Position numbers and translations under genes: made by a program
The notes under the pieces: model-generated
What the model was told of the DNA's origin: nothing
The model's input: only the letters and a program-made list of their open reading frames with translations
The model's database searches: none
Assembly: GCF_038632915.1 (NCBI RefSeq)
Contig: NZ_CP152050.1
Span: 3,255,001 to 3,319,000 of the forward strand
Source of the DNA: Paenisporosarcina sp. FSL H8-0542
Lineage (GTDB): Bacteria > Bacillota > Bacilli > Bacillales_A > Planococcaceae
DNA length: 64,000 nt
Direction of reading: 5' to 3'
In this document: positions 61,427 to 63,900 of the stretch, in pieces
Position numbering within the stretch: position 1 is the first letter of the stretch
How the letters are laid out: each line of letters starts with the position of its first letter

Positions 61427-62023
61427 GTGAAATTTAGAACTATAAGGAGAGAGACAGTGTATTTTAATAAGCCTATCCCGTCGCATCCAAAGGACATTCA
61501 CCAGGTTTTCGAGAGTTGGTCACTTACAAAAAAATTAATGTTTTCAGCATTGATGGCAGCACTTGCAGCCATTTTGCAATCTGCAGGGGGGCTGTTTCCA
61601 GGTATCGGCTATGCTTTCAGCCCTCTTGCTACAGCACCGATTTTTTTAGGTGCACTGATCTCATTCCGTTCAAGCATGTTGATTTACTTTTCAACAATTT
61701 GTTTATTATTAATAATTCAACCAAGCGAATTAGTGATTTTCCCCTTTACTACGGGGTTACTCGGAATTGGCCTCGGATGGACGTTCCTCGCTTTAAATCG
61801 GCGTCTAGGAATAATATTCTTGAATGGTTTACTATTGTTTATTGGCATTTGCATTCCATTGTACGGGTTCGGCTTCCCTGTTTTCGGTCCCACTGTTTCT
61901 TCTTCATTTAATATGACGACTTTAATGATTATTTTTGGATTTTCACTTTTCTACAGCTGGTTATGGTTAGCTATTGGTTTATTTTTGCTTCGAAAAATTA
62001 GGATGATTATAGCTTTGGAATAA
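61427..62023 (+). CDS. ECF S-component-like integral membrane protein
   Basis: 198 residues: basic cytoplasmic tail (about 1-35), then five to six helices beginning TKKLMFSALMAALAAILQSA, with GIGYAFSPLATAPIFLGALI in the place where ECF substrate-binding subunits carry their conserved loop. It could be a vitamin or metal uptake S-component, but no specific family motif is recognised. Divergent from the dehydrogenase-like gene. A weak G-rich site (AGAGGGATGG) precedes the GTG/ATG region, so the exact start is open. Confidence 0.65.
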   Translation: MKFRTIRRETVYFNKPIPSHPKDIHQVFESWSLTKKLMFSALMAALAAILQSAGGLFPGIGYAFSPLATAPIFLGALISFRSSMLIYFSTICLLLIIQPSELVIFPFTTGLLGIGLGWTFLALNRRLGIIFLNGLLLFIGICIPLYGFGFPVFGPTVSSSFNMTTLMIIFGFSLFYSWLWLAIGLFLLRKIRMIIALE

Positions 62024-62318: not shown

Positions 62319-62447
62319 TCATTTTAATTCAATTACCGGCCTAGGAATTTCTTCTTCTCCAGAAATTGAGATTACGTCAGAGTTACCTTTATTAATTCCC
62401 AAAAATAATATACTTATAATTGCAAAAAGCATTAATTTCTTTTTCAT
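62319..62447 (-). CDS. exported signalling pro-peptide (Phr/NprX/PapR-like), 42 residues
   Basis: Lys-rich start and hydrophobic core (MKKKLMLFAIISILFLGINK) form an export signal; a short polar part follows (GNSDVISISGEEE) and the C-terminus is IPRPVIELK. The ATG is one base after the stop codon of the RRNPP receptor gene, and GGGAGG inside the receptor gene is its ribosome site. Size, layout and position are those of RRNPP cognate pro-peptides, in which a C-terminal 5-8 residue piece is cut out after export and re-imported by an oligopeptide permease. The mature peptide is predicted to come from IPRPVIELK (inference). A terminator follows. Confidence 0.82.
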   Translation of the reverse strand: MKKKLMLFAIISILFLGINKGNSDVISISGEEEIPRPVIELK

Positions 62448-62448
62448 C

Positions 62449-63735
62449 TCACAAATCCTCCCATTTTAAAAACTTATTTTTTAATAGTAATGCCTCACTT
62501 GCAAGTTGATAATAAACTCCTGAATTCTTCAATTTTTTATTCAAATAATAATATTTTGCAAGTAGAACTGCATATTTATAAACATGACGATAGTCTTTTT
62601 TCAATTCAAAGTATTTTATAGCTTTAATTAATATATTTGTAAATTCAGTACCACCAACCTGCTCTGCTTCAAAGATCTTGAAATGATAATAATAAGAAAG
62701 ATTCTTTTCCTTTGCTTTAGAATACATTTCAAGTCCTTTTTCACACCACATCAAAATGTTTTCAGGACTTTTTAGTTTTGAATATTCTTGAATAATGGAT
62801 AAAATCGTTACGTAATAACCTTCAGTAGTCTTCTTGCAATCCATACTAGACAAAAAGTATTCGATGGCTTTATTTGACTCACCTTGTATTGTGAATAATG
62901 TCCCTAAATTCTGTGTAATAATTCCCTCAAAATCAAATAATCCACGATCTTTTAGTAATCTATAAGCTGCTTGAAAGCTTTCTTCGGACTCTTTGTATTT
63001 ATAATTTCTTTTATAACTAATTCCAATGGAAATATAACAATCAATGGCCCTGTTAAATAATAAAAGGTCACGGTATATATTTAGCGCCTTTCGAGCAAAC
63101 TCGATTGTACTATAATTATAATTATTTACTAGGTAACAAATCGCCATGACATTGTACAGATCCGCTAATTCCCAATTTTCTAATACTATTGTTTTTTGAT
63201 CTTCTAACGCCTGCTCAATGTATTCTACTGATTGAAGATATTCATCCGTGTAGAATGATTTTAGTGATTTATTGATATTGAAAACGCACTTTTGATAGTT
63301 TGTTAAATTCTCTTCATGATGTTCTATAAACTCAAACAAAGATTCTACACAAGACATTTCTTTACCACTTATTAAATACAATCTAGACAGAAAGAGTACG
63401 GAATTGATAGAGTATACCTGGTTTTTAAAAATAGTTCTCTTCTCTTCAATTTTGACGATTTCATTTGAAATAGACTTATGATTTCTATAGATTATTGCTG
63501 TTTTATAGAGCTCTTTAATTGAATTAAAAGTTGAAATTTCTTCTTCATCACTAACTTCAGTGATAGTTATAGAAAGTCTATTTAATAAGTTAACTAGGAT
63601 TTCATCGCTTGGGACAAGTTGATTATTTTCAACTTTACTTAAATAAGATATCGAACATATGCCTTTTGCTAAATTCAATTGCTTAATCCCTTGATCAACT
63701 CTTGCTTGTTTAATAATCAATCCTATATTCTTCAT
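62449..63735 (-). CDS. RRNPP-type peptide-responsive regulator (HTH plus TPR), second copy
   Basis: 428 residues. Residues 1-60: HTH with QLNLAKGICSISYLSKVENNQ and VPSDEILVNLLNRL, the NprR/PlcR style. Residues about 80-428: helical TPR-like repeats (ELADLYNVMAICYLVNNYNY, SEESFQAAYRLLKDRGLFDF, NLGTLFTIQGESNKAIEYFL). AAAGGAG lies five bases before the ATG. The stop codon is followed after one base by a pro-peptide gene, so receptor and signal form one operon. It has the same architecture as the protein at 4095-5318 but diverges strongly. Targets unknown. Confidence 0.88.
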   Translation of the reverse strand: MKNIGLIIKQARVDQGIKQLNLAKGICSISYLSKVENNQLVPSDEILVNLLNRLSITITEVSDEEEISTFNSIKELYKTAIIYRNHKSISNEIVKIEEKRTIFKNQVYSINSVLFLSRLYLISGKEMSCVESLFEFIEHHEENLTNYQKCVFNINKSLKSFYTDEYLQSVEYIEQALEDQKTIVLENWELADLYNVMAICYLVNNYNYSTIEFARKALNIYRDLLLFNRAIDCYISIGISYKRNYKYKESEESFQAAYRLLKDRGLFDFEGIITQNLGTLFTIQGESNKAIEYFLSSMDCKKTTEGYYVTILSIIQEYSKLKSPENILMWCEKGLEMYSKAKEKNLSYYYHFKIFEAEQVGGTEFTNILIKAIKYFELKKDYRHVYKYAVLLAKYYYLNKKLKNSGVYYQLASEALLLKNKFLKWEDL

Positions 63736-63900
63736 CTATGCTCCTTTGCGAAATTGTAAATTGTAAGTGAAATACACGAAAATTGAGAACTATTAAACAA
63801 TTATAATTATACCAATAAATAGAACTTTGGTAAATGTTTGTATTAATTTAAGTGAATTTTTACTATAAAAGGGATTAAAGTATATAAATTTACAATAAAA

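Follow-up and report, generated by a model that had tools for sequence, protein, structure and literature searches.

Does a regulator gene that stops one base short of a 42-codon open reading frame form with it a complete peptide quorum-sensing system, and if so, to which of the known kinds does it belong? The question is raised by a locus near the right end of the window, the 64,000-nucleotide stretch of the 3.63 Mb genome of Paenisporosarcina sp. FSL H8-0542 analysed here (G000:C1:3255001-3319000). An initial annotation had read the locus as an RRNPP receptor gene coupled to the gene for its own signal. We arrive at the same reading and give it a probability of roughly 0.9: the cassette would be an RRNPP-type pair for cytoplasmic peptide quorum sensing and, to judge by sequence similarity, is a member of that known family in an NprR-like branch of the Planococcaceae.

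Organization of the cassette

The receptor gene (62449..63735, minus strand), defined from its open reading frame, Pfam and profile matches, encodes a 428-residue HTH-TPR regulator of the RRNPP (NprR-like) type. The HTH DNA-binding domain spans residues 8-60 (63556..63714, minus strand) and matches Pfam HTH_3 at E 3.5e-7, above the curated cut-off; the TPR-type sensor region, approximately residues 76-421 (62473..63510, minus strand), is delimited by profile alignment to NprR (4gpk), its Pfam TPR matches lying below their respective cut-offs. A single base (62448) separates the receptor stop codon from the ATG of the propeptide gene (62319..62447, minus strand). The GGAGG ribosome site of the peptide gene (62461-62457, minus strand) lies 9 nt before that ATG, within the receptor codons TGG GAG GAT that specify the W-E-D of its C-terminal WEDL, and the sequence thus indicates a gene translationally coupled to the receptor. 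Both the one-base spacing and the ribosome site inside the receptor had been proposed initially and are confirmed by the coordinates.

The 42-residue propeptide, MKKKLMLFAIISILFLGINKGNSDVISISGEEEIPRPVIELK, falls into three parts. Residues 1-23 (62379..62447, minus strand) form the signal-like N-terminus that the initial annotation had pointed out, with KKK followed by a hydrophobic stretch whose hydropathy maximum is 3.04; this export signal is judged from hydropathy and the basic start, not from SignalP. Residues 24-30 (62358..62378, minus strand) are a linker that varies between two strains, and residues 31-42 (62322..62357, minus strand) are the putative signal core, EEEIPRPVIELK, recognized by the strain comparison and by a motif common with relatives. 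The terminator said to follow the cassette is also present: an intrinsic terminator with a 17-pair stem (62313-62274, minus strand; MFE -23.4 kcal/mol, z -7.15) just beyond the 62319-63735 span.

The best promoter-like site upstream, found by a promoter-pattern scan, is TTTACC-17-TATAAT with TG before the -10 (63806..63834, minus strand), and an inverted repeat read from the sequence, TACCAA-N11-TTGGTA (63811-63833), overlaps it. This site is weak evidence, because promoter-like sites are equally frequent in shuffled DNA (12 seen, 11.6 expected). A polysaccharide deacetylase gene lies upstream of the cassette on the same strand; its counterpart in another genome, G007, is 92% identical, and no receptor relative was found on the G007 contig that carries it. 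Just past the terminator, on the opposite strand, is a gene for a hydrophobic 198-residue protein (61427-62023) that has no Pfam match.

By analogy with NprR and PlcR, such a cassette could work as follows. The receptor and propeptide genes would be transcribed together, and the propeptide translated via its coupling to the receptor's end. The N-terminal signal would direct export of the propeptide, and extracellular processing would then release a short peptide that includes EIPRPVI(ELK). An oligopeptide permease may re-import this peptide, whose binding in the TPR groove of the receptor would then alter DNA binding by the HTH domain, making the receptor a transcription factor. SBP_bac_5, the domain of peptide-binding permease proteins, occurs at six loci of the genome.

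The receptor is NprR-like in build

With the receptor as single query, a PDB search finds NprR at E 2e-6. With a profile of 45 relatives NprR becomes the best natural match (E 3.8e-30, residues 76-421), outscored by an engineered repeat protein and followed by several Rap proteins, and PlcR matches at 5.3e-12 over residues 2-277 only. The search against RRNPP proteins that had been suggested for the receptor therefore agrees with its assignment: the TPR peptide-binding region is homologous to those of NprR, several Rap proteins and PlcR, and a small propeptide gene with a predicted export signal adjoins. One of 12 columns invariant among the 45 relatives is N276, in a QNLG stretch, which aligns with NprR N275. 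The nearest named record is from Paenisporosarcina sp. HGH0030 (L005), with a receptor 96% identical. Structure prediction of the receptor from two sequences gave a mean pLDDT of 36.

NprR-NprX of the Bacillus cereus group (PDB 4gpk, 5dbk) is the closest of the known systems. NprR proper combines an N-terminal HTH with a Rap-like domain of nine TPRs; here HTH_3 is present and the NprR alignment covers residues 76-421. In both systems the peptide gene is downstream; the receptors have 428 residues here and 423 in NprR, the propeptides 42 and 43 (excerpted text of PMC5641580). We mapped functional NprR residues by hand from the profile alignment, with roles as given in the accessible portion of PMC4970707. 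The NprX contacts H201, N306 and D309 are not kept and correspond to V203, G306 and V309, which counts against the pair reading; W167 corresponds to Y166. The core is likewise unlike the NprX signal, EIPRPVI in the window against SKPDIVG, and EEEIPRPVIELK fails a test for SKPDIVG-like signals, bearing out the earlier remark that the tail does not resemble that peptide. On the features tested, all of them read from sequence, the receptor is NprR-like in build yet not NprR proper.

The same mapping bears on whether the receptor could be bifunctional, binding Spo0F and delaying sporulation when free of peptide and being switched to transcription by the peptide, as in an NprR/Rap-like protein. Its length class and TPR match are those of NprR, Rap proteins are the next best matches, and the aromatic dimer residue Y410 is retained as Y409 and F225 as F227 in the hand-read alignment. 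However, D107, Y118 and Y223, which NprR needs for Spo0F contact according to that portion of PMC4970707, align with N105, L116 and L225; E188 is offset by a single column from E189, which is nearly invariant and may be its equivalent. Because most Spo0F-contacting residues are not kept, a Rap-like Spo0F function is unlikely and the receptor appears to be a transcription factor only; of the alternatives to a simple receptor-signal pair this one survives best, and we still regard it as improbable.

The remaining known systems differ more. PlcR-PapR and PlcRa-PapRa likewise have an HTH-TPR regulator, but PlcR is shorter, with ~290 residues (293 in the PDB chain) and five TPRs, and covers only residues 2-277 of the 428 here. 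Their peptides ADLPFEF and CSIPYEY contain a hydrophobic-proline step (excerpt of PMC3519770), to be compared with EIPRPVI in the window, and papRa is upstream of plcRa (same excerpt), whereas the peptide gene is downstream of the receptor here. The TPR region of the receptor aligns with RapH, RapF, RapI, Rap3T and others, but the solved Rap chains match from about residue 67 on, that is, without the HTH, and the HTH_3 match above cut-off sets the receptor apart from Rap proteins, which have no DNA-binding domain.

Receptors ~27-28% identical to that of the window are found on plasmids of Priestia koreensis, Mesobacillus foraminis, Cytobacillus firmus and Cytobacillus spongiae, and a small peptide gene lies behind the receptor in all four examined of the 11 plasmid records with a match; these four systems are plasmid-borne, unlike the window cassette. 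The Priestia koreensis receptor is 27.5% identical and its peptide core is EEEFPEPTV; the Cytobacillus firmus propeptide has the core DDEILPPLIV and a lipobox-like cysteine. On the Mesobacillus foraminis plasmid a propeptide-like ORF annotated as 'hypothetical protein' (L147:3260-3673) contains six EE[LF]PPPLAP units and adjoins thioesterase and phosphopantetheinyl transferase genes. On the Cytobacillus spongiae plasmid an unannotated 38-residue ORF (L149:3271-3387) follows the receptor gene after 11 bases and ends EEEFPPFSSKL.

Propeptide genes beside relatives of the receptor

A search of 261 genomes of the family found receptor relatives (E <= 1e-20) in 78 genomes and 11 of 19 genera, at no fewer than 117 places, a lower bound because at most six candidates were scored per genome. 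With a second profile, at E <= 1e-25, relatives are present in at least 167 of the same 261 genomes. A peptide gene can be read at the receptor's end in 90 of the 117 listed relatives; 27 have no readable peptide gene, which counts against the pair reading.

Ninety-six of these places were assessed by a mechanical rule and the other 21 by inspection. The rule calls for a same-strand small ORF starting -40 to +60 from the receptor stop with a hydrophobic N-terminus and, in its strict form only, a strong ribosome site. Under the strict rule 71 of 96 receptors have such a gene and none of 167 control genes does, the controls being other genes in the DNA of the same loci and in the window; when the ribosome site is not required the numbers are 75/96 and 13/167. 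One further pair, at L103, was missed by the rule owing to the length of its propeptide. Start codons are tightly placed: 73 of the 75 lie at -4 to +3 relative to the receptor stop. Among the inspected loci 14 of 21 have a peptide gene. L174, with neither ribosome site nor core, was dropped from the pair count; at L177 the receptor ahead of the peptide gene contains an internal stop, and at L182 the peptide gene lacks a ribosome site. The 27 unpaired places include three with broken genes (L098, L171 and L173).

Strict orthologues of the window receptor are sporadic, occurring in two of nine genomes of the genus and in one species only. Both have the small ORF, and its absence beside orthologous receptors, which would have spoken against the initial annotation, is therefore not what we see. 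Taken with the conserved core and the profile matches to NprR, Rap and PlcR, the frequency of peptide genes supports the receptor-propeptide pairing that had been proposed.

This genome has another receptor-peptide pair (L057:6067-7530, from G000:C1:2484087 on), whose peptide ends DDMPGPKSVDIELIVKQSISNP and which has no counterpart among the matches in a second strain, G006. More distant receptors, 23-26% identical, are present at L021, L026, L027 and L031; their peptide genes end in I/V-[RH]-P-P-V and represent a second class of signal within the genus.

A synonymous codon separates paired from unpaired receptors

The C-terminal W-E-[DE] that contains the ribosome site is kept in most receptors, paired and unpaired. 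Of the paired receptors that have it, 71 of 71 encode its Glu by GAG, the codon that creates the ribosome site; 12 of 15 unpaired ones use the synonymous GAA, which abolishes the site (Fisher p 3e-12, ignoring relatedness). Elsewhere in these genes GAG makes up 735 of 2823 Glu codons in paired receptors and 134 of 692 in unpaired ones. The three unpaired receptors with GAG are that of L103, which is really paired, that of L098, whose peptide gene is broken by an early stop, and a tandem orphan in the present genome; in another six unpaired receptors Gln takes the place of the Glu or the W-E-[DE] motif is missing. Along the receptor tree there are seven switches between the paired and orphan labels, of which well-supported branches force at least four, although the tree carries a warning of joined long branches.

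These observations bear on a second alternative, that the receptor reads some other ligand and its neighbour's small exported peptide has a separate function. The 27 unpaired relatives could be cited in its favour, as they include a tandem receptor conserved without a peptide gene beside a paired receptor in seven genomes of the genus. Such orphans are nevertheless a minority, most have lost the ribosome site through GAA, and most relatives have both the coupling and a common core; we consider another ligand slightly less probable still than a bifunctional receptor.

The signal core

Aligned on a proline, 75 peptides show the common core [AS]-E-[DE]-[EQ]-x-P-[RK]-[IPVL]-T-S, in which the columns next to the proline are inflated by choosing the best-fitting proline in each peptide. 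The 28 peptides with a single possible proline have D/E/N at -3 in 28, E/Q/D at -2 in 23, R/K at +1 in 20 and T at +3 in 10. The initial annotation had pointed to the tail IPRPVIELK. That tail does lie within the conserved core, but the signal appears best described by the proline-anchored core EIPRPVI..., and its mature end is uncertain because relatives have 7-20 residues after the anchoring proline.

Some relatives have DKP[DEK]ITS cores, and the DKPEITS-like and DKP[DE]ITS forms resemble NprX SKPDIVG (excerpted text of PMC5641580). The TTG-start propeptide at L103 (G132:C1, behind 3716609-3717889, minus strand) has five copies of IQDKP[DE]ITS and an NprR-like receptor. The repeated units in this and the six-copy propeptide probably correspond to the segment released by cleavage. 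An undescribed signal specificity for the window pair, as first suggested, is plausible.

Strain comparison and probable exchange of sensor domains

We compared the cassette with that of G006, labelled as the same species. The last 12 codons of the propeptide do not differ (0/12), but 11 of the first 30 do (signal 6/23, linker 5/7), and all five changed linker codons are non-synonymous. Conservation of the C-terminal residues with a varying linker, the pattern for which an alignment had been recommended, is thus present in these two strains. The receptor is divided in the same way, with no difference among the 62 HTH codons and 25 among the 366 others; zero change has p 0.013 in the core and p 0.018 in the HTH. 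Across the cassette as a whole we count 40 substitutions, where the remainder of the 18 kb would predict 5.9; dN/dS is 0.51 for the TPR part and 0.86 for the first 30 propeptide codons, and both frames are intact in both strains. Positive selection was rejected as the sole cause, since synonymous changes are raised too and the contrast of synonymous and non-synonymous changes with neighbouring genes has p 0.052. The raised synonymous divergence makes it likelier that the strains differ through exchange of a divergent allele.

The least probable alternative is a decaying or unused remnant, its small ORF persisting by chance and drifting, for the sporadic orthologues, excess substitutions and dN/dS values that it could explain are outweighed by intact frames, an unchanged core and HTH, a raised dS that fits exchange of a divergent allele, and recurrence of the arrangement across the family.

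A tandem paralogous locus (L056:5900-9300; G000:C1 ~905900-909300) was compared with its equivalent in G006 (L162). Nucleotide divergence between the orphan receptors is 2% for the HTH, 0% for codons 63-100 and 38% for codons 101-400 (47% of residues); for the partner receptors the same intervals give 1%, 8% and 23%, and the flanks are mostly ~0-3% different. The nearest relative of this genome's orphan sensor is in G004 (15% different) and those of the G006 sensor are in G001, G005 and G003 (27-29%), such that the two sensor types are each common with different other species. From these alignments it looks as if the sensor domain at the tandem locus was replaced and the HTH kept. L064/L072 resembles this pattern (HTH 6/62 codons, rest 137/369), but L045/L046 (4/62, 36/374) and L074/L076 (11/62, 86/369) do not; the comparison covers 34 listed of 107 close pairs, several of which lack sensor-only divergence. 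We offer only tentatively the suggestion that in a Planococcaceae-own RRNPP branch the sensing module, meaning the TPR region and, where present, the propeptide, recombines between strains and species and the DNA-binding module stays; this is possible, but we would not bet on it.

Upstream elements and phage

No operator or regulon was found, either among palindromes upstream of 96 receptors or with a 14-base pattern in seven genomes, and this too counts against the pair reading. Gapped palindromes upstream of the 96 receptors (61 clusters) are mostly AT-rich words and only slightly more frequent than in shuffles. Clade alignments upstream of receptors reveal a GTTGGGA(A/C)A element in two clades, which is absent upstream of the window's own receptor. 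In the form GTTGGGACATTT or GTTGGGAAACTT it precedes receptors in 18 aligned loci of genus code g17 and seven of g1 (L008-L011, L013, L014 and L056) and is followed, some 30-45 bases later, by an opposed TTTC[TC]CA arm. The 14-base pattern has nine exact matches, in five of the seven genomes (a reversed control pattern has four); four are upstream of receptors and five inside long ORFs. Because matches away from receptors are only inside long ORFs and the control has four, we infer no regulon; the near uniqueness of the element in the genomes scanned perhaps indicates autoregulation. A stretch like TGTCGAACGATT is conserved upstream of receptors in most of a set made up of L012 and 17 aligned loci of genus code g13, and we take it to look like a Spo0A box.

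A link to phage was considered and rejected, there being no match in 50,697 phage records and, in a scan of viral contigs, three loci matching the HTH part only.

Relation to published surveys and significance

The Planococcaceae names that we searched for are absent from the main texts of RRNPP_detector (PMC10075063), the mBio 2022 survey (PMC9765709) and a 2025 structural phylogeny (PMC12700828), whose supplements may hold members. NprR is recorded for 21 genera in the mBio survey, and members of the Planococcaceae branch may therefore already be counted there. Among the best 15 of 577 literature matches for RRNPP together with such genera there is no RRNPP paper, a weak test in which papers richer in genus names rank first. 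For recombination of receptor domains, the matches listed include Rap-Phr transfer (PMC5199041, in excerpt) and ComR specificity and none that corresponds to the present case.

If sensing modules do recombine as tentatively suggested, one regulon could fall under different signals, with sensor types common across species, and companion receptors that have lost the signal gene, in most cases along with the GAG codon, would read signals made elsewhere. The sensing domain has apparently been swapped as a block, and strain comparisons make the diversification of peptide-signal specificity directly testable. The synonymous GAG/GAA switch is an easily read mark in the sequence by which paired receptors can be told from orphans. 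The 90 receptor-propeptide pairs within one family have signals that can be aligned on a proline-anchored core, and these cores give testable peptide sequences for bacteria in which peptide signalling is not described in the literature searched.
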